Below, piece by piece: positions 3,400 to 26,010 of a stretch of 46,247 bases of DNA; within the stretch, counting starts at the first letter, position 1; each line of letters begins with the position of its first letter. The notes below the pieces were generated by a model. It was given only the letters and a program-made list of their open reading frames with translations, made no database searches and was not told where the DNA came from. A program made the translations under genes and the position numbers. This stretch comes from Bacteroidia bacterium (lineage in GTDB: Bacteria > Bacteroidota > Bacteroidia > UBA4408): assembly GCA_020845635.1 (NCBI GenBank), contig JADLFI010000032.1:1-46247 (forward strand). Reading direction: 5' to 3'.

Positions 3400-3884
3400 A
3401 TATTTTCTCTGATTATTGGGCAACTTTTCCAAACCATAAAATCTTTTCATCTTTTAATAAACTCACATCTGAGGAGATGTGGGTTTTATTTCTTTTATTT
3501 AATCCCACAAAAGCAAATCCTTTGCTCTCTATGTTAGATAGGAAGGATAAGGAAAAAGAAATTATCGCTACTTTAAAGATTGATAAAAAAAGGATAAATG
3601 AATTATCTAAATTGGAAGATGAATACTCAGAGAAAATATTAGTTTCAAGAGCAAAGAAAGAATTGGCTTTTTATTATAAGCAATTAGAAGAAAGAAGAAA
3701 GTATATAGAAAGTGTTCCCTACAATTCAGGTAATGCTGAACACAAGGATAAAATGATAAAGGGAACAAAAGCTATATGGGACGAATTTGAGAAAATAAAA
3801 CTGATAGTGGAAAAGGAAGAATCCTTAGAATCTCAAACAAGAGGTAATAGAGTAGAAAGTGCTGCAGAAAAGAAATTAATTTAA
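3396..3884 (+). CDS. Candidate terminase small subunit
   Basis: 162 residues, mostly helical and charged, directly upstream of TerL and overlapping it by one base (TAATG). The pattern (SSFNKLTSEEMWVLFLLFNP, a LEERRKYIESVPYN segment, then KAIWDEFEKIK and a final ESAAEKKLI) is one I know from the gene just before TerL in many Bacteroidota phages. A small-terminase role rests on position and helical character; no helix-turn-helix is obvious. It could instead be a virion or packaging accessory protein. Confidence 0.65.
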   Translation: MNIFSDYWATFPNHKIFSSFNKLTSEEMWVLFLLFNPTKANPLLSMLDRKDKEKEIIATLKIDKKRINELSKLEDEYSEKILVSRAKKELAFYYKQLEERRKYIESVPYNSGNAEHKDKMIKGTKAIWDEFEKIKLIVEKEESLESQTRGNRVESAAEKKLI

Positions 3885-6058
3885 TGCTATTTCCAGAAAT
3901 ATACAACCTTAAAAACTTTTTAACTGACCACCCCAACTATCACCCTGCTAGTCAAGATTATATATCTTATTGGAGGGAGCAAAAGAAGAGGTGTATTGAA
4001 GGCTTCTGGGCAGAAGACTATCCAAAAGATGGAGAAGTGGCTTATAGATATATGCCGGGGTATTTATATTTTTATGGAAATTTAAGTACTATTAAGGTAG
4101 TAGATGCAGAAACTAAAAGTACAGTTATATCGAGACCTCGTGTAGATGATGTAGAATGGATTTTCTTTACTGTCTTTTTAGTTTGTAGAGGTTTTTCAGG
4201 CTTTGAAAAAGATGAAGAATTTACTTGTATCATTGAGCCTGAAAGAAGAGACCCAAATAAAACTTTTGTAGAACCTTGGGAATATTTAAAAAGAACACAT
4301 TCTAAACCATTAGGTAGGGCTTTGTTTAATAATCAAGCCCTTAATCTTTTATGGCTCAGTAGTCGTGGTATTGGTAAAACATACTCAGTAGGAGCTGGTA
4401 TTATTACAGCGGAAATTCTTTTTGATGGTGCTAAGGTATATAATGAAAAAACTATTAATAATCCTGCAAGTATAACTATATTTGTAGGTGCTTATAAAGG
4501 AGATAAATCAACAAACCTGTTGGTTGCTATGGACGATGCCATAGCGAATTTACCGGGAAGTTATGGAGATGGGGATTCAAGAACAGTTTCTCCTTTTTAT
4601 AAGGAACTTACAGGGGTAAATAAACCGGGAAATATAAGACAACACATTTACAAGGTAAAAGAGAACGGAGATTGGGTCAGTAAGGGAACTAAGAGCAAGA
4701 TTGTTCATGAGGTTATTACTGTTGCCAATCCTCAATCTCCTGCGGCTTATAGGGCTACATTAGCCATTATAGAAGAGATAGGTTTATTAGAAGCTAATTT
4801 AGATGAAGTTCTTGGTGCGACTAATCCTGTATTAAAGGTAGGTAATCAAAAGTTTGGTTCTTTAATAGGTATTGGAACAGGTGGTAATATAGAAAAGGCT
4901 CAACAACTCGAACCTATTTTTAGGAATCCAAAGGAATATAACTTCTTTTCAATGTATGATATATTTGAAAATACAGGTGATATTGGATTGTTTATACCTG
5001 TGCATTATATGTTTAGGGAATACAAGGACAAGAATGGAAATACTAAATGGGATATTGTAAATGAAGTTATTAAGAATACAAGAAAAAAATTAAAATATAA
5101 GGCATTAGAACAGGAAAGAATGAACTATCCTGTTGTGCCATCAGAGATATTTATGAATAATAAGGGAAGTATATTCCCTTTAATTGAGATAAATGAACAA
5201 TTAAAATGGGTAATAGCTAATGAGAAAAAGATACAAAAGTTTACTTCCGTTGGAGATTTAGTTTATACAGAAGAGGGCTTAAAATTCAATGCAGATGAAA
5301 ATGCAATACCTATTAATAAATTTCCCTTAGAAAAGGGTGCAGACCTTACAGGCTCTATTGTTATATATGAACACCCTCCTGAATATATTCCTGAAAACCT
5401 TTATAAAATAGTTTATGACCCTGTGAGAGATGAGAATATAGATAAGATGGATCAAGGCATCTCCTTAGCTGCAATATATGTATATAAGGCTATAAATACG
5501 TATCAGGATATGAAAGATAGTTTGGTAGCTTCGTATGTTGGAAGATTGAGAAATACTGACCAGATACATGAGATAGCCTTAAAATTGGCGTTATATTATA
5601 ATGCTAAGATAATGGTGGAGATGGACTTACCCGGCTTTTATAAGTATTGTTTGCAAAGAAAGAGGTTAAATTTATTGGCTAAAACTCCTGTGGTGATGAT
5701 AAATAAATTTAACGCAAATGCAAAATTTAGATACTCCTATGGGGTTATGATGAAGGGAAATTCTGCTTTAAAAATTCAAGCAGAACAATACTTGGCTGAT
5801 TGGCTTTTAAAAGAACAAGAATTAGTAAGGGACGAAGAGGGCAATGTTGTAAAGGTTGTTAAAAATATAAATAGGATTTATGATAAAGCTCTTTTAGAAG
5901 AACTTAGAATATATAACAGAACAGGGAATTTTGACCGTGTTTCTTCTTTACTTTTATTAATGATATGGATTCAAGAAACTTTTCAAGAAGTTATTAATGT
6001 TAATGGAGAAGAGCAGGAAGATAGGTTTTCTGTATTTTTTGCAAAATATTTTAAATAA
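3884..6058 (+). CDS. terL: Terminase large subunit (TerL)
   Basis: The DNA-packaging motor and nuclease. In the 724-residue product the ATPase has a Walker A at 160-166 (SRGIGKT), a Walker B with catalytic Glu at 293-298 (LAIIEE) and a coupling motif GTGG at 331-334. The C-terminal nuclease domain shows acidic positions in VYDPVRDE (about 510-517) and in IMVEMDLPG (about 576-584). The N-terminal lead-in with RCIEGFW and YRYMPGYLYFYGN is typical of crAss-like and other Bacteroidota phage terminases. Translation is coupled to the genes before and after by TAATG overlaps. Confidence 0.93.
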   Translation: MLFPEIYNLKNFLTDHPNYHPASQDYISYWREQKKRCIEGFWAEDYPKDGEVAYRYMPGYLYFYGNLSTIKVVDAETKSTVISRPRVDDVEWIFFTVFLVCRGFSGFEKDEEFTCIIEPERRDPNKTFVEPWEYLKRTHSKPLGRALFNNQALNLLWLSSRGIGKTYSVGAGIITAEILFDGAKVYNEKTINNPASITIFVGAYKGDKSTNLLVAMDDAIANLPGSYGDGDSRTVSPFYKELTGVNKPGNIRQHIYKVKENGDWVSKGTKSKIVHEVITVANPQSPAAYRATLAIIEEIGLLEANLDEVLGATNPVLKVGNQKFGSLIGIGTGGNIEKAQQLEPIFRNPKEYNFFSMYDIFENTGDIGLFIPVHYMFREYKDKNGNTKWDIVNEVIKNTRKKLKYKALEQERMNYPVVPSEIFMNNKGSIFPLIEINEQLKWVIANEKKIQKFTSVGDLVYTEEGLKFNADENAIPINKFPLEKGADLTGSIVIYEHPPEYIPENLYKIVYDPVRDENIDKMDQGISLAAIYVYKAINTYQDMKDSLVASYVGRLRNTDQIHEIALKLALYYNAKIMVEMDLPGFYKYCLQRKRLNLLAKTPVVMINKFNANAKFRYSYGVMMKGNSALKIQAEQYLADWLLKEQELVRDEEGNVVKVVKNINRIYDKALLEELRIYNRTGNFDRVSSLLLLMIWIQETFQEVINVNGEEQEDRFSVFFAKYFK

Positions 6059-8412
6059 TGCAAACACAAATTTTAAACGAGTTTTCTAAAAATTATAATA
6101 AGAGTACTCCTTACTTGAAGGATAGGATTTCTTATGCTGCAAAAATAGCTAATAATTATGAATGGGTAAGAAATAAAATAGATTATTACTCGAGACATCA
6201 TCTTAGTTACAATGAGAGAAAGAAACAATTGGAAATTAATTATAATTTATACAATGGTCAATATGAAGAAAAAGACTATGCTTATCTTTTTAAGCAGTTT
6301 GGTTTTGAAACAGAATTAAAAAATGCAACTTTTAAACACTTTGATATAATGTCAGAGCCTTTAAGAGAAATTGTTGGGGAAGAGGAGAGAAGACCTTTTG
6401 AACCAATAGTGGTGGCTATTAACGCTGATGCTGTTATTAGGAAGAGAGAGGAAAAGGCAAAGTTATTGCAGCAATATATTTATATGAAGGCGATAGCCCC
6501 TATTATGGAGCAGGCTGAACAAGTTCCCCCTGAACAAAGAGAGCAGTTCTTAAAAGAGAATACACCAGAGGAAATAGAGAAATTGATGACAAAGAAATAT
6601 AAATCTCCTGAAGAAACTCAGGCTCAAAGACTCTTGAATTGGTTAAGCAAAAAAGAATACCTGAATAGGAAATTTAATTTAGGTTGGAAAGATGTGACTA
6701 TTGGCGCACAGGAAGTCTATTATGTAACAACAGAAAATGGACACCCCACAGTGAAGTTGATAAACCCAAAGAATTTTATCTTTGATTCGTCGGAAGAAAA
6801 TATTTTTATAGAAGATGGTGAATGGGCTTCTTATGAACATTACTTAACTATTACAGATATTTATAAACAATATGGTGAATACTTTACTGAAAAGGATAGG
6901 AAAGCTCTTGATGAGTATATTAATGATGATCTTTATAATCTTGATAAAGGACAATCTTTATTTAATGGCGAATTGATAGAAAGTTTTGGTACTGTTTATG
7001 ATGTTTCGACTTATCATAAATATTTGAGAGTAGTTCATACTGTTTTCAAAACTTTAAAAAAGATTAAATTTATATTAACCAATACACCCGAAGGACCAAA
7101 AGAATTTTTAGTTGATGAAACTTATAAGTTTAATCCAGAACTTGATATTGAGGAGACAGTTGCTTACATACCAGAAGTTTGGGAAGGTACTAGAATTGGT
7201 ACGGATATATATGTAAATATGGGTCCAGTTAAGAATCAATACACTAGTCTACAAAATCCCTTTTCTGCAAAATTGCCTTATTACGGAGCAATTTATGAAA
7301 GTAGAAATAGTGTTCCAGTTTCTCTTTTGGATAGAGCAAAGGCTTGGAATTATATGTTTGATGTAGCCTTTTATAGATTAGAGGAAGCTATTGGTTCAGA
7401 TTTAGGAAATGTCATGATAACCTTGCAAAAATCTATTCCTAAGAATTGGACACCAGAAAAATGGTTAGCCTTTTTAAAAGCTACAAAGGTAGCTTTAATT
7501 GACCCTACACAAGATGGATTAAATGCTGGTTCTGACCCACAATATTGGAAATCTATCAATGTGTCTAACAACAGTGATATTAGTAAGTACTTAAATCTTT
7601 TAAGTTATTGTCAAGAACAATGTTATAAATCCATAGGTACAAATGTTAATAGGATAGGTAGTGCCTCTGTTTCTGAAAGTGTTGGGAACAATCAGCAAAA
7701 ACTAATACAATCTGCCAACATTACTGAACCTTTATTTTCTCTTCATAATCAAGTTAAAGAAAGAGTTCTTACAGGCTTAATAAATGAGGCATTACAGGCT
7801 TATAAAGGTAATCCGCAGAAAACTGCTTATGTATTAGATGATGGCTCTATTGACCTCTTAGATATGAATACAGAGAATTTATCTTTGGAAGATTTTGGCG
7901 TATTCCTCAGTAATTCTGTGGAAGACTACAATATGGTTCAATCTTTAAGAGCTAATTTAAGTGCCTTAATTCAGAACTCAGATGGGGATTTAAGATTAAT
8001 ATCAACAGCCCTTAGAACTAAAAATCCTGCTGCCCTTGATGAATTAATTCATGAAAAATACGAGTCTATTGAAAAACAAAGACAAGCTGCACAACAGTCT
8101 GAACAGGAATTAAAACAAGCTGCTCTTCAAGTTGAATTGGAACAAAGACAATTAGACAGAGAAAATGAATTGAGAATTGCTATGATTAGAAGTATGGGTT
8201 ATGTGCGTGATGCCGATGTTAATAAGGATATGATTCCAGATATGTTACAGATGGAGAAGTTTAATAAGGAATTTGAAATTAAACTTAGAGAATTAGATTT
8301 AAGGAAAGAAGAACTAATGGAAAATAATAAATCAGAAGAAGCTGATAGACAAGTAGAAAGAGAGAAAATTGCCGCAGATTTACAAAAAAGTAAACAAAAA
8401 TCCGCCAAATAA
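6058..8412 (+). CDS. Portal protein
   Basis: 784 residues immediately after TerL, sharing a TAATG junction. The first 40 residues and the stem-like centre are followed by mixed alpha/beta clip and wing regions, including WLSKKEYLNRKFNLGW and an INPKNFIFDSSEENIFIEDG segment typical of large podovirus portals. The last 110 residues form a long charged coiled coil rich in Gln, Glu, Arg and Lys (HEKYESIEKQRQAAQQSEQ onward), fitting a barrel or extended tail of the portal. It makes the dodecameric DNA channel at one capsid vertex. Identification rests on position, size and these patterns. Confidence 0.85.
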   Translation: MQTQILNEFSKNYNKSTPYLKDRISYAAKIANNYEWVRNKIDYYSRHHLSYNERKKQLEINYNLYNGQYEEKDYAYLFKQFGFETELKNATFKHFDIMSEPLREIVGEEERRPFEPIVVAINADAVIRKREEKAKLLQQYIYMKAIAPIMEQAEQVPPEQREQFLKENTPEEIEKLMTKKYKSPEETQAQRLLNWLSKKEYLNRKFNLGWKDVTIGAQEVYYVTTENGHPTVKLINPKNFIFDSSEENIFIEDGEWASYEHYLTITDIYKQYGEYFTEKDRKALDEYINDDLYNLDKGQSLFNGELIESFGTVYDVSTYHKYLRVVHTVFKTLKKIKFILTNTPEGPKEFLVDETYKFNPELDIEETVAYIPEVWEGTRIGTDIYVNMGPVKNQYTSLQNPFSAKLPYYGAIYESRNSVPVSLLDRAKAWNYMFDVAFYRLEEAIGSDLGNVMITLQKSIPKNWTPEKWLAFLKATKVALIDPTQDGLNAGSDPQYWKSINVSNNSDISKYLNLLSYCQEQCYKSIGTNVNRIGSASVSESVGNNQQKLIQSANITEPLFSLHNQVKERVLTGLINEALQAYKGNPQKTAYVLDDGSIDLLDMNTENLSLEDFGVFLSNSVEDYNMVQSLRANLSALIQNSDGDLRLISTALRTKNPAALDELIHEKYESIEKQRQAAQQSEQELKQAALQVELEQRQLDRENELRIAMIRSMGYVRDADVNKDMIPDMLQMEKFNKEFEIKLRELDLRKEELMENNKSEEADRQVEREKIAADLQKSKQKSAK

Positions 8413-9397: not shown

Positions 9398-9399
9398 TT

Positions 9400-10908
9400 A
9401 TGCAAAACAAAATCTCAAAATTTCAAATTGCTAGACAAGATGGTAATCTAACTTGGGCTAACTATACAAGAGAAAATCACTTATATTACAATGGTTATAT
9501 TAAGCCAGCGGAACTAGCACAAAAAGCAGTACAATATGTAGCTACAAGTAAATCTCTTACTCGTGGTACTACACCTATTACTGACTTTACAAAGGGAAAA
9601 GGTCGTACTATTACAATAGATAAAAATGAATGGACATGGAAACTTTATGGTTTAAACTGTCGTCCTGCTGTTGTATTAGAAGATGTTGAACCTGATAACG
9701 ATGTTATGGGTATTCAACTTACTAAATTTAAAATCAAATTGGATTGTGACTACTACGTAACAGGTGATATTTTATATCCCCGTGGTCCTAAACAATTCCA
9801 AGTACGTATTCAAGAAGATCCCATAATGGACGGTGATGGTTGGATTTATACAGTTCAATTAATTACTGATGATCCTACTATGTTCCTACCTAAAAAATTC
9901 GTAAAGGTAGGTGAACAATGGAAAAAATTATTCTCTTCTTATGGTGAAGGTCGTATTGGTGCAGGTTCTACACAAAATAATAACTTGCCTTACTTCATTA
10001 TGCAATCTTGGTTGTCACACATAGCAAAACGTTATAAAGTTACAGGTGATGCTGCATCTACACGTTTGGTTATGGGTACACCTTCTATGAACTCAAATGG
10101 TTATGCTACTCTTGATCCTAATAAAAAAGGTAACTATTGGACTTATGAGCAAGATGCTATCTTTGAATATCAATGGAAACAAGACATAGAAAACTTACTA
10201 ATGTATTCTCGCTCTTCTCGTCGTGTTATTGATGAGCAAACAGGAAGTATGGTACGCCAAGGTCCCGGTCTTCAAGAATTGATGGAAGAAGGTAATATAC
10301 ATTACTATAATAAATTCTCTGTAAAATTAGTAGAAGATTTCTTAGCCGATATTTTCTTCAATCGTGTAGAATTTAAAAACCGTAACATTGTAATGTTGTC
10401 TGGTCAAGTAGGTTGCCAAATGTGGAATGATGCAATTGCTAACATAGCAAACGGTCAATTCTCAGATACTTCTTCTTTCTTCATTGACGATGATGGTAAA
10501 AAAGCTAACAGAAGCCAAGGCGGAACTCTTACCTATGGTAACTACTACAAAACATACAACATGATGTGGGGTCAATTAAGTGTTATGCACTTCCCTCTTT
10601 ATGATGACTTAGAAAAACAAACAGAAATTAATCCAGAAACTGGTCGTCCCACAGAAAGCCAAAGATTCACTTTCTTGAATTTAGGTTTAGGTGAAGGTAT
10701 CACAAATGATAATTTGATGTTTGTAGAACGCGAAAAAGGTGAAAGCTACGGCTATGTTGCTGGTACTTTCAGTCCTTATGGTCCAGCTAGCAACGAATTG
10801 ATGTCACATAGCGGAGATTACTACGAAGTAATCAGAACTAAAAAATGTGGTATCCAATTAACTGACCCCAAATTAACAGGCGAACTAATCTTTAATATGC
10901 ACTATTAA
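9400..10908 (+). CDS. Major capsid protein
   Basis: 502 residues in the canonical place after the scaffold. An N-terminal arm (MQNKISKFQIARQDGN) is followed by an extended loop and beta segments (WTWKLYGLNCRPAVVLEDVEP), consistent with an HK97-type fold. Codon use differs from the neighbours: arginine is mostly CGT here (for example near 9600-9800), while AGA dominates in TerL and portal, as expected for a protein made in very large amounts. Two genes for head proteins follow closely. The call rests on order, size, codon use and lack of enzymatic motifs. Confidence 0.85.
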   Translation: MQNKISKFQIARQDGNLTWANYTRENHLYYNGYIKPAELAQKAVQYVATSKSLTRGTTPITDFTKGKGRTITIDKNEWTWKLYGLNCRPAVVLEDVEPDNDVMGIQLTKFKIKLDCDYYVTGDILYPRGPKQFQVRIQEDPIMDGDGWIYTVQLITDDPTMFLPKKFVKVGEQWKKLFSSYGEGRIGAGSTQNNNLPYFIMQSWLSHIAKRYKVTGDAASTRLVMGTPSMNSNGYATLDPNKKGNYWTYEQDAIFEYQWKQDIENLLMYSRSSRRVIDEQTGSMVRQGPGLQELMEEGNIHYYNKFSVKLVEDFLADIFFNRVEFKNRNIVMLSGQVGCQMWNDAIANIANGQFSDTSSFFIDDDGKKANRSQGGTLTYGNYYKTYNMMWGQLSVMHFPLYDDLEKQTEINPETGRPTESQRFTFLNLGLGEGITNDNLMFVEREKGESYGYVAGTFSPYGPASNELMSHSGDYYEVIRTKKCGIQLTDPKLTGELIFNMHY

Positions 10909-10918
10909 TCTATAAAAC

Positions 10919-14014: not shown

Positions 14015-14042
14015 AAAGAGTAAGACTAAATAATTTAAAACT

Positions 14043-14666: not shown

Positions 14667-14667
14667 C

Positions 14668-14922: not shown

Positions 14923-15350
14923 ACTATATTTTAACAAAATACTACGGTATTAAGGAAGTAGAAGGACAAGGATACTCTCCTACTATTCTAAATTGGGTAA
15001 AAAAATATTTCCCAATGGTCAATGATGACGATATAATTCCTAATTGTTCTATTTGCTTAATGGAAGTATATAAGGAATTAGGTTTTGGGCATCTTATAAA
15101 ACATTGCACACCCGCAGCTATTTCTTGGTTACAAGGAGGAGAAGATTATTTCTTAGAAGCTGCAAAGCCCGGAGATATTGTGGTATTAAAACGTACTGGA
15201 GGTAATCATGTTGGTATTTTAGTTAGATACAGCCCTTATAAAAAAAGTGTATTCTTACTAGGATTTAACCAAAATAATCAATGCAACATCTCTGAATATA
15301 AAACTCATCTTATAAAAGGAATACGTAGATATGAACTCACAAGTAATTAA
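14910..15350 (+). CDS. Endolysin, NlpC/P60-like amidase (TIGR02594 type)
   Basis: A peptidoglycan-cleaving cysteine peptidase of 146 residues, counting from the ATG at 14910 (MEIINYILTKYYGIKEVEG); a start at 14868 would only add residues from the holin reading frame. Family features visible are YYGIKEVEG at the N-terminus, catalytic Cys46 in PNCSIC, PGDIVVLKR at 87-95, His100 in GGNHVGILV, and LGFNQNNQCNISEY with the closing GIRRYE. The family usually has WCS at the catalytic cysteine; here it is NCS. No signal peptide, so it depends on the holin just upstream. Confidence 0.85.
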   Translation: MEIINYILTKYYGIKEVEGQGYSPTILNWVKKYFPMVNDDDIIPNCSICLMEVYKELGFGHLIKHCTPAAISWLQGGEDYFLEAAKPGDIVVLKRTGGNHVGILVRYSPYKKSVFLLGFNQNNQCNISEYKTHLIKGIRRYELTSN

Positions 15351-15591
15351 AGTTTTAAATAAAAAGGAAATAGTATACTTAGAAAATTTAAAATATAATA
15401 ATAGCGGTATTATGATAAAATCTAAGGAACTGTTAGAAGAAGTTAAACTCAAACATCAAGTAGAATTTACTTGCAAGGACTATAAAGAATTATATTTAGT
15501 TTATAAAAGAGATTCTAAATTTACTTATTTCTTAGCTTTAAAAAATAAGACTCTGTCGGAGGGAAAAGTAAAATGGCATGTAACTGCATAA
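15331..15591 (+). CDS. Hypothetical small protein after endolysin
   Basis: 86 residues, basic and helical/beta mixed (MNSQVIKVLNKKEIVYLENL, KDYKELYLVYKRDSKFTYFL). No membrane segment or lipobox, so it is not a clear spanin. It overlaps the endolysin by 20 bases and the next gene by 19, so it is translated as part of the cluster. No function assigned. Confidence 0.6.
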   Translation: MNSQVIKVLNKKEIVYLENLKYNNSGIMIKSKELLEEVKLKHQVEFTCKDYKELYLVYKRDSKFTYFLALKNKTLSEGKVKWHVTA

Positions 15592-16085
15592 AAGAATTTG
15601 CTTATACGATTACTACTCCTGATTGCAAACACTTGCTATATCAAGATAATTCAACTTGGGTCGAAGTTCCTGAAACCTATGAGATTTCAATCGAAATCTC
15701 TGGTTATCCAATTAAAATCTTTACTGTAACTACTAATTCCCCAACTTTAATTTCAGCTGTTCAACTAATAGGCATAGACCAAAATCTACCTACAGGAATT
15801 TACTGTATTAAGGTTACTAATTGCAACGGCGATATTATTCAATATGATTATTTAAACTTATGCACCGCAGAATGCTCTCTATCTAACTTGCTTTCTAATT
15901 TAGATTTACTTTGTACTAATGAAGAATTAGAAACTCAAACAAAAGAATATCTTAATATTAAATTTTGGTTAGATGCAATTAGGGCAAAGTTTAATTGTGA
16001 TTGGTGTGCAAGAGGGGAATTAAAATTATTAATTACTGCCTTACAAAAAAAATTATCTAATGCCAAAAATTGTAAGTGTAGCTAA
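15573..16085 (+). CDS. Cysteine-containing tail or fibre protein
   Basis: 170 residues. It starts MACNCIKEFAYTITTPDCK. The N-terminal 90 residues are beta-rich (YEISIEISGYPIKIFTV, GIYCIKVTNCNGDI), like an immunoglobulin-type domain; the rest is helical with cysteines (LLCTNEELETQ, FNCDWCARGELK). It ends KNCKCS. It is probably an adaptor or fibre subunit; the composition links it to its large cysteine-rich neighbours. It overlaps the next gene by 26 bases. Confidence 0.55.
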   Translation: MACNCIKEFAYTITTPDCKHLLYQDNSTWVEVPETYEISIEISGYPIKIFTVTTNSPTLISAVQLIGIDQNLPTGIYCIKVTNCNGDIIQYDYLNLCTAECSLSNLLSNLDLLCTNEELETQTKEYLNIKFWLDAIRAKFNCDWCARGELKLLITALQKKLSNAKNCKCS

Positions 16086-16623
16086 TTGTAAATTAGCTGA
16101 AGTTGGCTTTGACAAATATTTTAGTAATATTTACGGAACAAAATACTGCGGTGATAATAATTTTAATTTGCTACATACTCTACTTTGGGCGTTTAATTTA
16201 CCTTGCTCAGACAAAGAAAAATTAACTTCGATAATAGCTAAATTATTAAAGCATTGTAAAGATTGTACTCCTGAAAGGTATAAAGAACCCATTATAATTC
16301 CAAACCCAGATTATACTTCTTGGTACACAAGCCAATCTTATATAGATTGTTTAAATCAAGAGTTAATAAATAGTGGTTTTATAAGTGTTATATCCCCATT
16401 AGTAGATCTGTGCGCCTCTTTAAATATTGAAATAAATCAATTTCAACTTTGTAGTAATATAGCTATACAGTTATCACAATCAGCAGTTCCTTGCTCTGTG
16501 ATACCCACTATAAATTTGCAAACTGTTTGTTCTATACCGCAAACTGAAATAGAACTAAAAACTTGTGATACTGAAATTCTCCTATCACAATTAATTACAA
16601 ATAATATCTTATCTAATCTTTAA
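16060..16623 (+). CDS. Cysteine-containing structural protein, hypothetical
   Basis: 187 residues. Helical N-terminal half with cysteine pairs (KHCKDCTPERYK) and a C-terminal half with beta segments and regularly spaced cysteines (VDLCASLNIEINQFQLC, VPCSVIPTINLQTVC). No known family recognised. Between the previous adaptor-like gene and the giant fibre gene it probably belongs to the same assembly. Confidence 0.55.
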   Translation: MPKIVSVANCKLAEVGFDKYFSNIYGTKYCGDNNFNLLHTLLWAFNLPCSDKEKLTSIIAKLLKHCKDCTPERYKEPIIIPNPDYTSWYTSQSYIDCLNQELINSGFISVISPLVDLCASLNIEINQFQLCSNIAIQLSQSAVPCSVIPTINLQTVCSIPQTEIELKTCDTEILLSQLITNNILSNL

Positions 16624-16635
16624 AAATTAATAAAC

Positions 16636-19600
16636 ATGTCATGTGGCTGTAATTCAGTTATAACCATACCTCAAACCTGTGATAAAAATGCTACAGTGTG
16701 TCAAAACGGACATGTGATAATTCCTATTTCTTGTAGTACGCCTATAATTTCCACACCTTTGCATGGAGAAGTTCTTTTACATGCAGTAGATTCAAATTAT
16801 TGGCTTATTTACCATCATACAGGCTCTACAATAGACCCTGATATTTTTACCTACACATGCGGCAGTACAACTTGTACGGTTAATGTAGAGGTTATTGAAG
16901 GTGTTCAAGAGAATCAACAAATTATCACACTAGTAGCTTCGGGGGAATGTGAGTTGGGTAGTCCAACTTATACTTGGGAAATTCCTCCCTGCGCAGTTTT
17001 AGTTGAAGGTTATACTATTTATGACAATGAGATTCAACTTATTGTAAATAATTATAATCCACTCCTTTCATTGGAAGAACAAATATGTCAAATTACTGTC
17101 AATGTTTGTTGCGGACAATGTACTGGGTGTTGTAAATGTAAACACTTTTATTGGCAACCCCCAATATGTGTTAATACCTGTGAGGAAGTAAATTGCTATT
17201 GTCCTTACAACTGTACCGAATATAATGAACAAACTTCAAATTGCAATCCTTCCTGTTCTTTGGAAGAACCAAATTGCTGTCTTTCAGAAACTTGTTTAGA
17301 ACTTACTCCATTTATACCAACTTATCAAACTAATACTTCTGGCATTAAATTTGCACTTTCAGCAAATTTACCCGGAGGTGTTTGGAGTGGTGCGCTTTTA
17401 TCAGACATTTCAGTTACTCCTGAAAATTGCTATGACGGCTATTTTACTAATCTTGTAGAAAGTGTAAGCGTAACTCTTGCTGGTGATTATATGTCTATTT
17501 ATATTGGTCAAGTAGATCCTGACACAGGTCAAACTACACCTACTACAGTATTTATAAAATATACTTACGGTGCTATTTCTGCCGTAATGATGCTACAAGT
17601 GCTGAATGGTATTGTAACACCTTTAAATGTAGAAACTCTTACTGTAGTAAGTAATCTCTATTCAGGAGTATCTTATTGTGAAGAAAATTGTATGAGTGCT
17701 CCGGGTTTTTGTGCAGAATGCTGTGAAGATTCTCACTGTACTCCAAGTACGGAATGTATCTTTTCCCCTACTTGCCAAAATGGTGAATGCCTTTGCTATT
17801 TAAATGGCGAATGGGCAGAACCATTGGAAAATGGTTGTTGTCCTCAATGCGCAGGTAATGTAGGGTGTCAAGAGTGCGTAAATGGAGTTTTACTTCCCTT
17901 ACCAACTTGTGGTGCGAATGAAGTGTTAAATCCTACTACTTGCCAATGTGAATGTCAATGTAGCCAAGGTTATTGTATAGACCTATTAGAAACTAACCCT
18001 TCTTTAAAATGCAAACCTTGCCCTTCTTCTTGTACTTCTCTTTCAAATCAATGGTTAAGTTGTGGAACACCTTTACAACTTACTTGTCCTCCCTGTCATT
18101 CTTGCATAAATAATGAGTGCGTAGAAACTCCTTGTGCTCCGGGATATTATCCCTCTGATAATCCTTGCTGTGTTCCTTGTCCTACTTGTAATTCTGGTAT
18201 TCAAGTAAAAGAATTTTGTAATGCAATTCATTTGCCAGAATTTATGGGGTGCGATAATGCAAAAGAATATTATCTTTTTAAATGGCATGGATTAACCATT
18301 CTTCCCGAAAGTAATTGTGATTATAACAGCTTAATAAATTATGTAAGTCCTTCTAATAGCATAGACATAACAAACAACATAGGAGCTTCTCTAACTGTTG
18401 AGTGGAATGCAACAGGAAGTACTTTCTTTAATCCTACAGGAACTACTGATGCTTTCTTATCTGGCGGCTTTTTAAAAATAAAAAGAATACCCACAGGAGA
18501 AACCATTCCTACACAATCATTACTTTTAAAAGGTACTTATTATGGAGTAACTGTTGGCTTTGAGTTTAAATTCAATGTTCTAAGTGAGACTTGTCAATTA
18601 GCAACTATTATTGACTCTGTTCTATTAACCCCTGTTAATCCAAGACTTTATGAAGTAAGTTGTACTAGGGTATTAGGAATTACAAGTTCTTGTCCATTCT
18701 CCTTTACACAATTGACTTTGGGTTCTGGGTGCGTGATGCCTGTGGCTTATTTAAATTATTCTATTTTTAATAATTTACCAGATGATTGTTTAGTTACTGC
18801 CACAGCAACTAATCAACAAAATGGCACTGTTTGTTACTCTTTAACAACAACGCATCAATTATATGCTTGTGTCGGAGGTTGTGGATGCGCTCCTTGTGAA
18901 GGTATTGGAACATTTAATTTATCTATTGAAACTCAAACTTCTGGAAATACTATTTATGGAAGTAGTAGTGTTTTAGTGTCTTGCCCCAATGAACTCATAG
19001 GTCTTTTATCTACTTGTGAACCTGCATCTGGTACAGAGGTTTGTCCTACTGTAAACAACTGTGGTTCTAGCCCGATAGAACTTCCTGATAATTACACTTG
19101 TTCAAATTGTTCCCCATTTACTTGCAATACTGCTTGTACCACACAATTCTGTGGTTGGGGCTATCAACAAAGTGCTTTTAATTTGTTAGGTTATAGTGGC
19201 AATAATATTCAAGTTGAACTTTTACCCGGTGTTTTAAATGGTAAATTGTGTTATGGCATAAATACAGAGTGTGGGTACGTATGTAATTGCAAAATTGTAG
19301 AAACAGCTTGTACTAACACACCACAAGTAGATTTCTTAGAATTTGATTGTACTACTTGCCAATGGAAATTTAATGTTACCGACTTAAATGGTACAGAGTT
19401 TGAAACAGGGACAATAACAAATGCTATTGCATGTACTAATGTGCCTTTAACTTATAGTATTTCAGGAACGATAGTTTCTGTTCCTGCAACAAGTTTGCCT
19501 TTTGGACAAACTTGTGAAAATTACTTAAATAGTATTGGTGCTGGTTGTGGTTCTGTTACCTTAACTTATACAGATAATGAAGGTTGTACTGCATCTGCCA

Positions 19601-21345
19601 CAGGCACTAAATTCTGCCAAGAAGATTGCACAATTTCTATTTCTTCTGAGATTGACTGCGAAGATAATGTAATAGAAGCTACTATCATAGGAGGAACACC
19701 TTCTTATACTGTAACAGCAACATCTAACAGCACTGTAATTTATAATAATATTATTAACAGCAATTCCTTTATTATTACCAATGTTCCTAATACTGACGTA
19801 ACAATTGTAGTTACAGATTCTAATGGTTGTATAGCAACACAATTTGTAGAAACTTCTTGTTGCGAAGATCCTGTATTTACAGCAACTTTGAATTGTACTT
19901 CTGTCAATAATGTCAATTTTACTGATACAGTAACCGTTGTTGTTGTGTCTTCTTGTGAGGAAACTATGACAGCTTCTGTAACTATTGTGTTTAATAACGG
20001 AACACCTACGCAAATAATTTCTTCTTCTATTAATATCAGTGGGACAGAGGAAATAGAAATACCTAATTATGCTTTAAGCAATATAACTTCTATTACAGTT
20101 GAAGTTAATTGTGGAGAATGTACTGCAGAAATACCCGTAGCTTTAACTTGTTCAGGAGAAGAAGTTTTTGGTTATAATTGTGCTGATTGTAATCTTTTAG
20201 TTTTAAATGGTCAATATGCAACCGTAAATTTATGTAAATCTTCTTGCCCAAATTATGGCTACAATTGCGAAGATTGTACTAATGCTGTTCAAGGAGGTGA
20301 ATACCTCACAACAGCTCTTTGTGAAGAAAATTGTAACTGTGTAATTCCCATTACAAACATAACAATAGAGAATGAAACTCCTGTTGAAGCAAATAAATAT
20401 AAATTAGTTTGCACAAATGGCGTAGCTTCTTGTGTTCAGGATAATGTAAATGGCACAACAACAAACTCAAATTGTGCAGGGTTAACAATTGATTGCAGCA
20501 CAACTGGTGGAATGGATTGTGTATATTATGAGGAAGAAACTTTTTCAACTCCAAATCCAGTATTTTCAATTTTCTATTTTGTTAAGGGTGCAATAGAAGC
20601 TGCAATTACAACAGGAGTAGCTAAAACTGCCATTATAACTTATAGTTTTAGAACTGATTTAGGAAATGAGTTTAATGGTATAACTACAGGTCACACCCTT
20701 AATGAAGTAAAAGCAGAAATTCATAACTCCTTTTTACAGATTTCTCAATTATTTTCGTGCTTGTTCCCACAAACTACTGTAACTTTTGTTAATAAAAATG
20801 GTGGTTACGCAGAAGAAACCATAGGAAATACCGCTACTTACGGCAATATAAGAATTGGTTCAGAAACAAATTCTAGTAATTTTTGGGCTGTTTGTAGAAA
20901 TAATAGTGGCTATAATCCAAATGGGTTTACAGTAACAGGGGATACATACCAACAAAACCAAGCTATACGCTACATTAATTTTAATCGTAACAGCTGTTTT
21001 AGACTAAACTCTTATTTAGTAACTTCAAATGTTTGTAGGTCTATTATGGATAATTTTATTCATGAGGCAGGTCATGCCCTTGGTTTAAGTCATAGTCAAG
21101 GCGCAGGAAATATTTCTTGTGGTAATCTTGGTTGTATGGATGGTGGGTGTGATACAAGTCTTGGTGGTTGTTGTACTCCTCCTTCTGAGGTCTTGTGTGG
21201 TTGTGGTTCTGCTGCTTGTGAACAATGGACTGATTGGTTTTCAAGTCCCTATTACGTAAAAGGAATTTATAATTTTTATAAACCTAATTCATTTGATACT
21301 TTCACTCCTTTAATTACTTATACAAACGATATTATATGCCCTTAA
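16636..21345 (+). CDS. Giant cysteine-rich fibre with C-terminal matrixin-like metalloprotease
   Basis: 1569 residues. The N-terminus (MSCGCNSVITIP) lacks a signal peptide. Much of the chain consists of beta domains joined by dense cysteine clusters resembling EGF or knottin modules (for example CCEDSHC and CQCECQC around 350-460). A SprB-like repeat lies near 1010-1070 (IIGGTPSYTVTA, then VVTDSNGCIA). Two short YNCxDC...LC...C modules lie near 1180-1235. From about 1320 the chain looks like a matrixin: ITYSFRTDL, helix, TVTFV, NIRIG, then the zinc site HEAGHALGLSH at 1476-1486 and a likely Met-turn methionine at 1501 in LGCMDGG. It probably cleaves host surface protein or matures the fibre. 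It overlaps the next gene by 10 bases. Confidence 0.8.
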   Translation: MSCGCNSVITIPQTCDKNATVCQNGHVIIPISCSTPIISTPLHGEVLLHAVDSNYWLIYHHTGSTIDPDIFTYTCGSTTCTVNVEVIEGVQENQQIITLVASGECELGSPTYTWEIPPCAVLVEGYTIYDNEIQLIVNNYNPLLSLEEQICQITVNVCCGQCTGCCKCKHFYWQPPICVNTCEEVNCYCPYNCTEYNEQTSNCNPSCSLEEPNCCLSETCLELTPFIPTYQTNTSGIKFALSANLPGGVWSGALLSDISVTPENCYDGYFTNLVESVSVTLAGDYMSIYIGQVDPDTGQTTPTTVFIKYTYGAISAVMMLQVLNGIVTPLNVETLTVVSNLYSGVSYCEENCMSAPGFCAECCEDSHCTPSTECIFSPTCQNGECLCYLNGEWAEPLENGCCPQCAGNVGCQECVNGVLLPLPTCGANEVLNPTTCQCECQCSQGYCIDLLETNPSLKCKPCPSSCTSLSNQWLSCGTPLQLTCPPCHSCINNECVETPCAPGYYPSDNPCCVPCPTCNSGIQVKEFCNAIHLPEFMGCDNAKEYYLFKWHGLTILPESNCDYNSLINYVSPSNSIDITNNIGASLTVEWNATGSTFFNPTGTTDAFLSGGFLKIKRIPTGETIPTQSLLLKGTYYGVTVGFEFKFNVLSETCQLATIIDSVLLTPVNPRLYEVSCTRVLGITSSCPFSFTQLTLGSGCVMPVAYLNYSIFNNLPDDCLVTATATNQQNGTVCYSLTTTHQLYACVGGCGCAPCEGIGTFNLSIETQTSGNTIYGSSSVLVSCPNELIGLLSTCEPASGTEVCPTVNNCGSSPIELPDNYTCSNCSPFTCNTACTTQFCGWGYQQSAFNLLGYSGNNIQVELLPGVLNGKLCYGINTECGYVCNCKIVETACTNTPQVDFLEFDCTTCQWKFNVTDLNGTEFETGTITNAIACTNVPLTYSISGTIVSVPATSLPFGQTCENYLNSIGAGCGSVTLTYTDNEGCTASATGTKFCQEDCTISISSEIDCEDNVIEATIIGGTPSYTVTATSNSTVIYNNIINSNSFIITNVPNTDVTIVVTDSNGCIATQFVETSCCEDPVFTATLNCTSVNNVNFTDTVTVVVVSSCEETMTASVTIVFNNGTPTQIISSSINISGTEEIEIPNYALSNITSITVEVNCGECTAEIPVALTCSGEEVFGYNCADCNLLVLNGQYATVNLCKSSCPNYGYNCEDCTNAVQGGEYLTTALCEENCNCVIPITNITIENETPVEANKYKLVCTNGVASCVQDNVNGTTTNSNCAGLTIDCSTTGGMDCVYYEEETFSTPNPVFSIFYFVKGAIEAAITTGVAKTAIITYSFRTDLGNEFNGITTGHTLNEVKAEIHNSFLQISQLFSCLFPQTTVTFVNKNGGYAEETIGNTATYGNIRIGSETNSSNFWAVCRNNSGYNPNGFTVTGDTYQQNQAIRYINFNRNSCFRLNSYLVTSNVCRSIMDNFIHEAGHALGLSHSQGAGNISCGNLGCMDGGCDTSLGGCCTPPSEVLCGCGSAACEQWTDWFSSPYYVKGIYNFYKPNSFDTFTPLITYTNDIICP

Positions 21346-24080
21346 AAAATGTATCTGCACAAGTAACTGTAACTGCGCCTTCAACTTATGCTTGGCAGGT
21401 TACAAATAATACTTGTGGTTCAGCACCTGTGTTTTCTGGTGCTATGTCTGGAATCTTAAATGCAGGAACTACTACTTTATCCCAAACAATTTCATTTCCA
21501 GAGGATTGTGAAGTTTCGGTTTGTTTGGTAGTAACGGAAGATGATTGTGTAGATTCAACCTGTTTTAATCTTGTTGAAAATACAATACACACGGAATATT
21601 CATGGGCTTGTTCTCATACAACAGAACAACAATTTGAATGTGTTTATGTTGAAAATGCAAGTGGAGGATTCTCCACAGAAGAAGAATGCGAATCTTGTAG
21701 AGATTCTCAAATGTGCCCTACTTGTAACGGAACTCCTTGTAATGATTATGTTCTTAATGCAACTTACAATTGCACTACGGGTATAAGTTTAAATTGGGTT
21801 GGTCCAGTTTATAACGGCATTATAGAATGTCTTTACTTAACAGTAAATATTGCAACACAACCTTGTACGGATAATATTTTAGCACAAAATATAAATGGTA
21901 CGCAAATAAATACTGTTACAGGAATGTTCCCTAATGGTACATATTCTGTTGGTGTTAGTGCGCAATTAGAAAATGGGTGTATTATATCTAGTAATCCTAT
22001 TGTAATTGACTGTTTAGGAACAATTGAGTGGAACTTAGAATGTTGTCAAACTATTGATACTTCTGGTATTATGGCAGGTTATCAAGATAAATACTATGTA
22101 TTAGACATTACTAACAATGATTTAAGTCAACCTATCTATGCAGACTTTTCCTTTTTTCAAGTTGCTGACAGGTTGAAATTCTATGATTATTCAGAAGTAG
22201 TTTTTACAAACGGGATACCTTCAAATCTTAACTCTTTAACTACTGTTGCTGATACAGATTATGTAGGGAAACAATTATCTTGCTATCCTCCTCTCTTGAC
22301 ACCTTATTATGGCTTTGTAGAAAAAGAAGACAATGACCCACCATCAGCACAGGGACAATCTGATACTGTAATGCAAAGTTTAAGTCCCTCTTGGTCACTT
22401 TTATTTCCTTGCAATAATAACTATACACAATCTTATACAACGCAGTTATATTGCCCACAATGTACTTATTACAATTCTGTATATATTATACCTAAAAATT
22501 GTGCAAATGCTCCTAATGTACCAGACTGCGAACCTGTGGACATTATTGGTTGTGGAAGATTAACTATTTCTCCTACAGCATTAGCTACGATTGGTACAGT
22601 AACCACAGGAAGTCCTGTATCTAATAGAAAAAAACTTTTCATTCATTTAGAAAGTAATGATTGTAATACAGGTTGTACTGCTGCAGTATTCAAAATACTA
22701 TGCCCCGGTTGTTATGGTTGCGAAATAGATTGTGATATATCATACAGTTGCACTCAGGGCTTACAATTTACTAATTGTGAAGATGTCGAAGTAAAAAAAT
22801 GTACTTTTGATGCTAATGGTGCTGAAATATGTGTAGATGCAGTTGAAGGAGAATTTTTAGCTAATGGTACGCATTATATCAAAGCTATAAATACTTCGAT
22901 AGATAACTGCTTTGAATCTACACCTATTCAAGTAAATTGTCCTGCTTGCACTACTCCTCAAATTAGAAGCGTTACTTCTGGTTGTATTAATGATGATAGA
23001 ACCAAAGGTTTAATACATGCAGATTTTTCAACAACACATACTACTGCTTATGTTCATTTTGGAGTTTTAATACAAGGTGATTATGTACCGGGAATGTACC
23101 ATAACAAATATGTTGGTTATGATTGTAATGTTTTTGGTTGTGCAGGTTATGTTCAAATTCAAGCCACTGGTATTATTAGTGGCGGTTATTATTGGTATCA
23201 ATCAGTTGCTTTTGTTCCTATTAATTCTACATTAGCTCTTGTGTTCTTATTTGATGATACATCTGGAACACTTACTGATTTAGTTAATACAGATTATAAA
23301 GTTAAAGTGACTGATGGTGCATGTTCTACTGAATATCCAAAAGTTGGAGTTAATTGTGTTGATTGCGAATCTTGTGAGAGTAATTTAGCAAATTATCTTT
23401 TTGGTATATCTACTGGAACTACAGGAGATTATTTACTTTCTCAAATACAATCTACCGTGAATAATACAGGTGATTTTAGTAATGTAAGTATTAATAATGC
23501 TTTGTTTGGAGGAATCAGTTTAGATTATTCTACGATTACCAATAGTCCTACAATATATTATAACAATCTTAATCCAAGTTTAGTGGACATTTCAATTTTG
23601 CCCACAGGGTATCACCCATGGTCATTTACGATTGCACCAACACCTGTTAATTCTAGTCTTGTTCCCAGCACTTTGTCAATACAAGTTCAAACTTATGTGC
23701 ACAAAGATGCTCTTGGTGGTGTAGTATACAATTCTCTGTTTAAAGATTTGTCCTTTACTCATTCTTGTTCAGTAGTTAATCCAGAAGAAATGACTATTAC
23801 TGGTCAATTATTATTGGAAACTCAATTACCTTTGACTACTTACACAACAGGAGACTTGACTGTTACTTTAAATGGAAATCCGGGGACAATTGTTAATGTA
23901 TCTGGTATTTCAGATAATACAGCAATAGATTTTTCTGCTGATAATGTAAGAAATGGCACAAACGTTTTGGCAATTTTATTTAAATCTTCTTATTCAGGTT
24001 CTACTGGAGTAGATGAACTTCCTGCTTATACCGATTTAATACAAAATTATACTATAACTTATACAATAGCTTGTCCATAA
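21336..24080 (+). CDS. Large cysteine-rich fibre protein
   Basis: 914 residues in frame -1 to the preceding gene, beginning 10 bases before its stop. The sequence opens directly in a beta domain (VTVTAPSTYAWQVTNNTC) without leader or anchor, as if it continued the upstream protein. It carries a CSHTTEQQFECVYVE...C module like those near the end of the upstream protein and many CxxC pairs (CPTCNGTPC, CPGCYGCEIDCD). Its last residues (NYTITYTIACP) echo the end of the upstream protein (LITYTNDIICP). No enzymatic motif is seen. Probable receptor-binding or adhesin component. Confidence 0.75.
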   Translation: MPLKNVSAQVTVTAPSTYAWQVTNNTCGSAPVFSGAMSGILNAGTTTLSQTISFPEDCEVSVCLVVTEDDCVDSTCFNLVENTIHTEYSWACSHTTEQQFECVYVENASGGFSTEEECESCRDSQMCPTCNGTPCNDYVLNATYNCTTGISLNWVGPVYNGIIECLYLTVNIATQPCTDNILAQNINGTQINTVTGMFPNGTYSVGVSAQLENGCIISSNPIVIDCLGTIEWNLECCQTIDTSGIMAGYQDKYYVLDITNNDLSQPIYADFSFFQVADRLKFYDYSEVVFTNGIPSNLNSLTTVADTDYVGKQLSCYPPLLTPYYGFVEKEDNDPPSAQGQSDTVMQSLSPSWSLLFPCNNNYTQSYTTQLYCPQCTYYNSVYIIPKNCANAPNVPDCEPVDIIGCGRLTISPTALATIGTVTTGSPVSNRKKLFIHLESNDCNTGCTAAVFKILCPGCYGCEIDCDISYSCTQGLQFTNCEDVEVKKCTFDANGAEICVDAVEGEFLANGTHYIKAINTSIDNCFESTPIQVNCPACTTPQIRSVTSGCINDDRTKGLIHADFSTTHTTAYVHFGVLIQGDYVPGMYHNKYVGYDCNVFGCAGYVQIQATGIISGGYYWYQSVAFVPINSTLALVFLFDDTSGTLTDLVNTDYKVKVTDGACSTEYPKVGVNCVDCESCESNLANYLFGISTGTTGDYLLSQIQSTVNNTGDFSNVSINNALFGGISLDYSTITNSPTIYYNNLNPSLVDISILPTGYHPWSFTIAPTPVNSSLVPSTLSIQVQTYVHKDALGGVVYNSLFKDLSFTHSCSVVNPEEMTITGQLLLETQLPLTTYTTGDLTVTLNGNPGTIVNVSGISDNTAIDFSADNVRNGTNVLAILFKSSYSGSTGVDELPAYTDLIQNYTITYTIACP

Positions 24081-24634
24081 TGTGTATCAATTGTGCTGAA
24101 TGCTTAGAGCAAGTAAATCCTGCTTGTATTTTACCTGTAACAGCGTGTATTACAGGAACTACCTTAGCGGAACAAATTGTTAATATTGCAAATAGTGTCT
24201 GTAATGTATCTGAACAATTAGTTACTGTTAATTTTGGCAATTCTAATTGCACACCTTATCAGTATGAATATACCCTGTTAGATGGGATTACTAATTTTAC
24301 AATACATATAGACTTCTATGCTTTTAATGATTATGTTTCAGATGTAAAAAATATAACTGTATTAAATGGAGCTTCTGTTATAGCTTCTGGTTCAACTACG
24401 AGTTTTACTCTTTCTAAAACCTTGCTACTGACAGGACTAACTTTTAGTATACAGTTTATTTTAAACAATGGTGCTGTTTTTGTTTATCAAGATGTTATAA
24501 CCTTGAATGGTTTAACAGCATTAAACAAATCCTATATAAAAACAATGCAATGTATAAATAACGGTATAGTAACTTTACCGATACAAACAGTGCTTCAAAA
24601 CATTTTAGACAGGTTAAATTCCTGTTGCCAATAA
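24080..24634 (+). CDS. Small cysteine-containing fibre-associated protein
   Basis: 184 residues from the ATG at 24080 that overlaps the preceding stop (TAATG); an in-frame TTG at 24071 is less likely. It starts MCINCAECLEQVNPAC, then a helical segment, a beta-rich middle (YEYTLLDGITNFTIHIDF) and a C-terminus ending DRLNSCCQ. The character matches 15573-16085, so the two may be related subunits or chaperone/adaptor pairs flanking the giant fibres. Last gene before the terminator. Confidence 0.6.
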   Translation: MCINCAECLEQVNPACILPVTACITGTTLAEQIVNIANSVCNVSEQLVTVNFGNSNCTPYQYEYTLLDGITNFTIHIDFYAFNDYVSDVKNITVLNGASVIASGSTTSFTLSKTLLLTGLTFSIQFILNNGAVFVYQDVITLNGLTALNKSYIKTMQCINNGIVTLPIQTVLQNILDRLNSCCQ

Positions 24635-24767
24635 AATTAGTGATAGTTTTTTAGTTTGGGGGGATCATTTATGGTCTCCCTTTTCTATTTATAACTATAA
24701 AATAGTTAAAGAATAAAAAAGATAAATAAAATAAAGACATTAGAGTATCTTGTTATAAATTATAAAA
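24635..24767. other. Intergenic break between fibre and neck operons
   Basis: The widest gap within the rightward structural genes. It holds the terminator described separately and an AT-rich leader. A TATCTTGTTA about 30 bases before the next ATG only weakly resembles the TAnnTTTG box and lacks the CACTAA box, so no promoter is called with confidence. Confidence 0.4.
24658..24685 (+). terminator. Rho-independent terminator after the fibre block
   Basis: GGGGGATCA (24659-24667) pairs with TGGTCTCCC (24672-24680) over nine positions, two of them G-U, around a TTTA loop, and is followed by TTTTCTATTT. This is the clearest plus-strand terminator in the window. Confidence 0.85.
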
Positions 24768-25439
24768 ATGACTTACAGAGATATAGTTTCACAAGTAAAA
24801 GCCCCATTTCATCAGGGGGTAGCTCCACAGAGCCAAAGATTAAGTAGCAGACATATCATCAGCATAGCTTTAAGAAAAAGAAGTAAATTATTGGCACAAG
24901 AGAGGGAAAAGAAATCTTTAAAGGATAAATTCCTTTTACAAAGCATTTGTATTCCCTTAATTGAAGTAGCTAAGCATGAATGTTCTTGCGTAAGTATAAA
25001 TGGTTGTAAGGTATTAAGAAGTAAAAATAAAATACCCACGCCCTTAAAAGAAAGTGAAAAGCAAGTAGTTAGTATTGATGGTAGCATCTCTTTTAGTCCT
25101 ACTACTTTCAAAGATTATAAAGAATTTCAAAGACTAAAAGTTAATTCCCCCAAATTCTACATTATGAATGAGTACCTCTATATTTCAGGAGTGGAAGATT
25201 TGCAATGGGTGAAGTTAATTGACGTGTTTGAAGATCCTTATGCCGCAGATAACTACACAGATTGTTCGGAAGAGACCTCAGATTCATTTTGTTCTTCTGC
25301 CTTAGAAACTGAATTTAGAATCTTGCCTAAACTTGAAGATGCAGTAATTCTCTTAATTATTGAAGAATTATACAAGTCTTGGCAAAATGGTTTACAAGAC
25401 ATAATTAACAATCAAACAATAGATGGAACAGGAAAATAA
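24768..25439 (+). CDS. Neck/ring-type structural protein
   Basis: 223 residues. A basic N-terminus (SSRHIISIALRKRSKLLAQ) is followed by LIEVAKHECSCVSINGCKVLR, a KIPTPLK turn, beta strands with YLYISG, and VFEDPYAAD. This combination (long N-terminal helix, HECxC, 'SKNKIP', 'FEDP') is one I recognise from proteins beside the ring genes of crAss-like and related Bacteroidota phages. It probably forms part of the ring stack between portal and tail. It overlaps the next gene by 17 bases. Confidence 0.65.
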   Translation: MTYRDIVSQVKAPFHQGVAPQSQRLSSRHIISIALRKRSKLLAQEREKKSLKDKFLLQSICIPLIEVAKHECSCVSINGCKVLRSKNKIPTPLKESEKQVVSIDGSISFSPTTFKDYKEFQRLKVNSPKFYIMNEYLYISGVEDLQWVKLIDVFEDPYAADNYTDCSEETSDSFCSSALETEFRILPKLEDAVILLIIEELYKSWQNGLQDIINNQTIDGTGK

Positions 25440-26010
25440 TTTAAAAATTCCTGCTTATCTAGGTAAAGTAAATTTTGTAGACCATTGGAGTAATCCTATT
25501 TATATGCAGCATGTAAAGAAAATGCGCCGTTTTCAAAGAGTATTTGAATTTGGGTTGTGTGTTTGTACTGCCGCCTCAGAGTGGGTTTCCTACAAAGTAA
25601 GAAAAATACCTTCAAAAGACAGACCTGTTCTAAACAAAGATACAGGATTAGGAATTTTTAAAAAGATAATACTTGCCTATACAAGGAAGATATTAGAAAC
25701 AGTTTTAAAACAAGGAAGATTTACCATAGATAATTACGGAACATTTTTCTTAGAAAAAATTGAATTAGACGAAAAGAGAAGAAAAATCTATGATAGTAGA
25801 TTAATAAAATATAAAAAGATGTGTTATCTATTAGAAGATAAACTTTATAAATTAGCCTTTACCAATAGAGAAGGTATGGTAACAAAAAATCCTTTTAGAT
25901 TTTTCAAGTTTTACCCGAATGAAATTACTACAAGAGAAATATATTACACATTATTAACAAATCCTATATTGCAAGAACTTGCAGTACAAAAAGGTAATTA
26001 TAACCCATGA
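25423..26010 (+). CDS. IHF/HU-like protein in tail module
   Basis: 195 residues. Helical first half; residues about 96-112 (KQGRFTIDNYGTFFLEK), followed by a basic, Arg/Lys-rich stretch, look like the arm region of HU/IHF. Genes annotated as IHF subunits are typical of the tail module in crAss-like phages, and I recall structural work assigning such folds to tail ring proteins, so this may be a virion ring component rather than a DNA-bending factor. The product has no other motif. It ends with an ATGA overlap with the next gene. Confidence 0.65.
   Translation: MEQENNLKIPAYLGKVNFVDHWSNPIYMQHVKKMRRFQRVFEFGLCVCTAASEWVSYKVRKIPSKDRPVLNKDTGLGIFKKIILAYTRKILETVLKQGRFTIDNYGTFFLEKIELDEKRRKIYDSRLIKYKKMCYLLEDKLYKLAFTNREGMVTKNPFRFFKFYPNEITTREIYYTLLTNPILQELAVQKGNYNP

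Follow-up and report, generated by a model that had tools for sequence, protein, structure and literature searches.

The enzymes listed on the tail spikes of crAss-like phages target glycans, phosphoesters and the cell wall: the tail-spike domains described in a 2023 review of the Crassvirales are BACON, glycoside hydrolase, phosphatase and CHAP, and proteases go unmentioned there (PMC10136315). Peptidases of the metzincin kind are found in other phages, within the tape-measure proteins of actinophages. The annotated gp17 of Arthrobacter phage Shambre1 (L306), for instance, carries HEVGHALGLHH together with SIMHP. Metzincins have a Met-turn methionine beneath the zinc, and their fold is made of a backing helix, a sheet of 4-5 strands, an active-site helix and a C-terminal helix. 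In one metzincin family, the matrixins (M10A), the third histidine of the zinc signature and the Met-turn methionine are usually about 8 residues apart. The pappalysins (MEROPS M43; ulilysin, mirolysin, cytophagalysin) feature a Met-turn of the type NxMDY, with a tyrosine switch, and a calcium loop, which in cytophagalysin corresponds to D251-T256 (PMC11674741).

The stretch of DNA analysed here, denominated the window, is a whole contig of 46,247 bp from an assembly of 3.05 Mb in 60 contigs, and is the contig of a crAss-like phage. Terminase, portal, capsid and ring proteins of the crAss type are encoded in order (Table 1), and comparison of the capsid protein places Fpv-group Flavobacterium phages (34.6% identity) closest among the named relatives, followed by gut crAss-like phages. 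The bin is unreliable for the host, because a nearly identical contig and more distant relatives are found in MAGs of other taxa. The former (L216, QCWD01000016.1), 98.5% identical to positions 884-18050 of the window over 17.1 kb, belongs to a MAG that bears the label Nitrososphaeraceae archaeon; a relative with 57% capsid identity, and siblings of the window phage, are binned in a MAG labelled Neisseriaceae. The phage contigs in these two MAGs are probably mis-binned, and the kinship of the phage suggests a host belonging to the Bacteroidota. In one sibling, a terminase ORF of 1500 aa (G451:C52:6933-11435, L230) matches the terminase of the window in three separate segments, and the extra stretches of ~370 and ~380 aa are possibly two inteins.

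Table 1. Features of the window relevant to the fibre-borne peptidase domain and its phage context
Feature	Position	Strand	Remarks
Terminase large subunit (phrog_6681)	3884..6058	+	PHROG match
Portal protein (phrog_6547)	6058..8412	+	PHROG match
crAss-like major capsid protein (phrog_11589)	9400..10908	+	PHROG match
Conserved neighbour, 170 aa	15573..16085	+	46-50% to siblings
Conserved neighbour, 187 aa	16060..16623	+	34-41% to siblings
Putative virion appendage (fibre) protein, 1569 aa, cysteine-rich (8.4% Cys), predicted peptidase domain at its end	16636..21345	+	ATG start, uninterrupted ORF; inside virion-gene block colinear with sibling phage
N-terminal ~206 residues of fibre	16636..17253	+	38-42% identity to siblings; probable virion-attachment module
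SprB/Ig-like beta repeat (GGTPSYTV...VTDSNGC), residues near 1000-1075	19633..19860	+	By eye; no Pfam match above cut-off
Two short cysteine-rich repeats (YNCADC...C, YNCEDC...C), residues 1180-1235	20173..20340	+	Probable stalk ahead of peptidase
Predicted C-terminal peptidase domain, residues ~1321-1569 (~250 residues)	20596..21342	+
Zinc signature HEAGHALGLSH, residues 1476-1486 (H1476, E1477, H1480, G1483, H1486)	21061..21093	+
M1501, Met-turn candidate of the preliminary description, 15 residues after H1486	21136..21138	+	Doubtful
D1502-GGCD-T1507, pattern DxxxDT of pappalysin calcium loop, 16 residues after H1486	21139..21156	+
QWTDW (1530-1534), where pappalysins have their Met-turn NYMDY; Thr instead of Met	21223..21237	+	Tentative
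Second appendage protein, 914 aa	21336..24080	+	Sibling ortholog (N-terminal 316 aa, 24.6%) directly after serine protease gene
CrAss_Ring_2 tail ring protein	24768..25439	+	Pfam E 1.3e-24

The sequence HEAGHALGLSH fits the extended zinc signature of the metzincins (clan MA(M)), HExxHxxGxxH/D, and is the single occurrence of HExxHxxGxxH in the six frames of the window. The signature is real and not fortuitous, since only 7.7e-6 occurrences are expected by chance per protein of such composition, and none was found in 20,000 shuffles of the 1569-aa protein. A preliminary description of this DNA, made from the letters alone, had singled out the signature and delimited the peptidase region to 20560-21330, which is correct to a few bases, though the protein itself extends further, to 21345. 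The upstream elements ITYSF (1334-1338), TVTFV (1381-1385) and NIRIG (1404-1408), and M1501, the sole methionine located C-terminal to the signature, are likewise all present. A zinc peptidase of the metzincin type is the most likely identity of the last ~250 residues. Neither a signal peptide nor a propeptide has been seen in the domain.

Gene position and architecture point to a tail fibre, as opposed to an appendage elsewhere on the virion. Its layout reads as an attachment module, a shaft, a stalk and a tip, usual for appendages contacting a receptor; a sub-threshold Ig-like Pfam match covers residues 975-1053. Beyond the first ~206 residues, the protein diverges from the corresponding proteins of two siblings (contigs C52 and C148 of G451), and the conservation of the N-terminus along with divergence of the remainder is the usual pattern of host-contact proteins. 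Relatives of the N-terminus were found neither in viral contigs nor in phages, and searches in 395 genomes detected Ig-like fragments only. The nearly identical contig mentioned above ends at fibre residue 471, and the C-terminal end is thus known from one assembly. A recent acquisition of the domain is unsupported by base composition, the GC content being 0.337 in the peptidase domain, 0.352 in the rest of the fibre gene and 0.323 in the window.

Close homologues of the domain have been found neither in viral contigs, genome contigs and phages, nor in two sets of 60 and 395 genomes, the weak matches in the latter two sets being host M43-type proteins or unrelated. Thirty-two mostly crAss-like records (28 crAss-like viral contigs, many of which near full length, two MAGs with relatives and two named phages) were searched for HExxHxxGxxH, and the signature was found in none. 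Loci of crAss-like phages and of the siblings, 1.16 Mb in all, likewise contained no metzincin signature. The domain is therefore accessory, and not a housekeeping one. M43 peptidases are encoded by 57 of 60 Bacteroidota-class relatives of the genome hosting the window, and may have been a ready source of the domain; a search for M43 genes in the window's own genome as a possible origin returned the query alone.

Zinc peptidase signatures of various kinds have been identified in other viral sequences. More than 90 ORFs carrying metzincin signatures were found in viral contigs (loci L017-L136); some of them encode small secreted proteins that resemble archaemetzincins (HEIGHTLGLDHC..L.CIMA). 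M43-type domains are part of large Ig-like or Pro/Thr-rich proteins, possibly of the virion, at L043:3834-6395 and at L104:1098-2903 and 2990-4891. The domain is above the Pfam cut-off in L043 and below it in L104, where there are two in tandem. Many crAss-like contigs feature a small HExxH protein (open frame of ~130-150 aa; IAHExxHxxN...DNDEPxAYL) conserved upstream of the capsid genes (L166:3109, L170:2706, L171:2706, L182:3154, L187:3154, L202:2162, L204:2178, L213:3145, L014:1327). HExxH zincin-like stretches are also located within giant cargo-type proteins of crAss-like phages (L014:46131, L228:18320, L229:11715, L229:13694).

Gene order in the sibling contig C148 follows that of the window across positions 15573-30741, and again at 36628, with one extra gene. 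This gene (L221:4645-6333, 562 aa) lies exactly between the orthologs of the fibre and of the 914-aa gene. The fibre ortholog is there 910 aa long and lacks the metzincin; in the window, the place of the extra gene is taken by the metzincin, encoded at the 3' end of the fibre gene. The product of the extra gene matches the PHROG category 'protease' (1.3e-12, N-terminal part) and, weakly, NAL1_N (0.0028, pointing to a NAL1_N-like N-terminus) and Trypsin (0.041, below the Pfam cut-off), and in its C-terminal part weakly matches trypsin-like PDB chains. Candidate His and Ser motif regions of the catalytic triad are GNQHC, identified by eye, and GDSGSP. The gene plausibly encodes a trypsin-type serine protease, whose fold would be unrelated to that of metzincins. 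That one slot is filled by two unrelated proteases speaks for a cutting role that is accessory and directed at the host, and would be the best evidence of a proteolytic function there, though the cases are two only and may be coincidental. It can tentatively be proposed, though the balance leans somewhat against it, that a crAss-like lineage has an exchangeable protease slot by the first appendage gene, used to cut or recognise the protein coat of particular Bacteroidota hosts.

The following mechanism is proposed for the window. H1476, H1480 and H1486 would bind zinc and E1477 would serve as general base. The resulting endopeptidase would be borne on the cysteine-rich stalk, exposed at the distal end of the fibre. 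During adsorption it would most likely cut a surface-located protein of its Bacteroidota host, be it a surface lipoprotein, an adhesin, a protein coat or a capsule-anchoring protein, and the cut would let the tail gain the outer membrane. The module would be accessory and exchangeable, as the sibling with the same fibre N-terminus has the trypsin-type gene instead. We give even chances to this reading as a whole; that the substrate is a host surface protein is an idea helped by the serine protease found in the same slot of the sibling.

The fusion of the domain to a fibre, the proximity of other virion genes and the location of the sibling protease gene between two appendage genes would also fit an assembly or maturation protease, which clips the fibre or a neighbouring virion protein, the serine protease of the sibling acting likewise. 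Proteases of this type are however usually conserved together with their target, while neither protease signature is found in most of the crAss-like relatives whose DNA was searched, denoting that virion assembly has no general need of them. The accessory and exchangeable character of the domain suits host adaptation better than virion maturation, and the latter is unlikely.

The peptidase is classed as metzincin-type, M43 being the family towards which the data lean. Matches of the domain to Pfam models are all sub-threshold, and mainly involve zinc peptidases (M66, 9.5e-4; M10, 0.0036; Reprolysin_3, 0.008; M43, 0.11). The M10 model (PF00413) scores 17.6 bits against a curated cut-off of 24, and covers the zinc motif region alone; M43 (PF05572) scores 12.9 bits against a cut-off of 23. 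Similarity beyond the motif was evaluated by comparing the domain with profiles derived from M10, M12B, M43 and other loci, relative to shuffles in which the motif was kept or the flanks only were used. M10 profiles, both upstream and downstream of the motif, performed no better with the domain than with 2000 shuffles of it, and with M12B profiles, too, the domain did not outscore its shuffles beyond the motif. Similarly, motif-fixed shuffles showed that hhalign scores to M10, M12B and archaemetzincin-like profiles are due to the motif. The global hhalign score to M43 was 34.2, by a slender margin higher than the maximum of 60 shuffles (32.6). In the M43 downstream flank, 45 of 2000 shuffles were as good as the domain (a probability of about 0.02, uncorrected for the six tests made), and in the N-terminal half of the domain the M43 match was no better than in shuffles. 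In motif-fixed pairwise tests against 182 metzincin domains, M43-like sequences, a class assigned from source search or sequence features, accounted for 10 of the best 13.

The region C-terminal to the zinc motif resembles pappalysins more than matrixins. A DxxxDT pattern located 10-31 residues after the third histidine is found in 32 of 34 M43 sequences, in none of 50 M10 and M12B sequences, and in 1% of shuffles. QWTDW is found thirty residues beyond D1502GGCDT, and NYMDY sits at 30-40 residues in M43; the QWTDW pattern was widened once seen, and statistics on it are biased. The pappalysin Met-turn NxMDY with its tyrosine switch is not matched as such, as in the tentative alignment methionine is changed to threonine (Thr1532) and tyrosine to tryptophan. 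If the alignment is correct, the Met-turn residue is a threonine and M1501 is a mere bystander; M1501 may be the Met-turn methionine if the protein is instead adamalysin- or matrixin-like. Met-turn variants can, as reported for ulilysin, retain some activity. The residue noticed in the preliminary description is thus there, 15 positions after H1486, and the function attributed to it is doubtful in view of the alignment of D1502GGCDT and QWTDW to M43. The adamalysin/reprolysin group was also considered, on account of a match to acutolysin (E 0.5), the likeness of CGNLGCM to CGGKSCI and a possible Met-turn spacing, and set aside, as M12B profiles fared no better than shuffles.

Structure prediction has been of limited help. 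From the single sequence AlphaFold gave nothing usable (pLDDT 30.8). With 30 M43 rows, pLDDT was 44.7 and pTM 0.42, a gain perhaps partly attributable to the rows chosen. This low-confidence model features a strand at 1334-1338, a helix at 1353-1367, a strand at 1380-1385, the zinc helix at 1464-1481 and a helix at 1529-1536, and the succession of strand, helix, strand and zinc helix anticipated in the preliminary description recurs in it. Foldseek searches with the model gave no match at E <= 0.001. In a VIA fold search with the same model 15 of 44 rows were MMP, ADAM or serralysin chains (Z 2.0-2.8); vWA domains were interspersed with the MMPs at Z 2-3, and pappalysin chains were absent from the rows. 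Model and fold searches neither prove nor refute a metzincin fold.

These data bear on the matrixin identity originally proposed for the domain, with M1501 as Met-turn. The order of ITYSF, a helix, TVTFV and NIRIG, partly reproduced in the model, resembles that of matrixins, as does by eye VKGIYNFY (1541-1548), which recalls their C-terminal helix, and MMP chains are among the fold matches. An M10 score below the cut-off and confined to the motif, flanks at or below the level of shuffles, the M43-specific DxxxDT pattern and a His-Met spacing of 15 instead of the usual ~8 weigh against it. What survives of the proposal is a probable metzincin-type zinc peptidase at the C-terminal end; its inclusion in the M10 family is improbable.

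Equally improbable appears the hypothesis that the domain kept the metzincin fold and signature and mainly works as an adhesin, binding a host surface protein with little or no catalysis. The threonine replacing the Met-turn methionine in the pappalysin alignment, and the adhesin-like nature of the remainder of the fibre, are consistent with it. Yet the zinc signature and the catalytic glutamate are all intact, and would be needless in a pure binder, and the same slot of the sibling hosts an active-looking serine protease. It is highly improbable that the domain is active once the phage has entered, or upon lysis, shedding receptors against superinfection or the re-adsorption of progeny to debris, as this does not require a fused, virion-borne enzyme, even if receptor-destroying enzymes on virions provide a general precedent, and a virion enzyme cutting a receptor would also have such an effect.

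The preferred reading remains that of an endopeptidase at the fibre tip cutting a host surface protein. If true, a virion-borne endopeptidase in one phage and a different protease in its sibling would indicate that a protein layer is a barrier or a receptor in some hosts, and the slot, if confirmed as such, would be the proteolytic counterpart of the capsule depolymerases of tail spikes. That peptidases are unusual on phage tails, as suggested at the outset, holds for the Crassvirales as tested (0 of 32 mostly crAss-like records; PMC10136315), but metzincins are present in tail proteins of other phages. Enzyme-tipped phage appendages are known; within the literature searched, this class of enzyme is unreported for the crAss-like group, and none of it describes a crAss-like fibre that bears a metzincin, which is no proof of absence.

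In comparison with pappalysins, the domain shares HExxHxxGxxH, the DxxxDT loop, later cysteines, TPP, and a turn-like QWTDW at fitting distance. It differs in the M43 score below the Pfam cut-off (E 0.11), the change of the Met-turn methionine to threonine, an N-terminal half indistinguishable from shuffles, and the fusion to a phage fibre. With matrixins it has in common the zinc signature and a rough order of elements, but the profile match is below the cut-off, is unsupported beyond the motif, and the methionine is far from the third histidine. The actinophage tape-measure proteins (Shambre1 gp17, L036, L086) similarly associate a metzincin peptidase to a large tail protein, so that a metzincin on a phage tail protein is not wholly new. 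In contrast to the window, their peptidases are of the M10 family (above the Pfam cut-off in L036 and L086), have a Met-turn of the SIMxP type, and are located inside a tape measure and not at the end of a fibre. The trypsin-type gene of the sibling shares with the window the slot directly 5' of the 914-aa gene ortholog, but is a separate gene, putatively encoding a serine protease of unrelated fold. Crassvirales tail spikes resemble the window fibre in being modular, fast-evolving appendages with an enzyme or binding domain, but their domains act on glycans, phosphoesters or the cell wall (PMC10136315), whereas that of the window would act on a protein.
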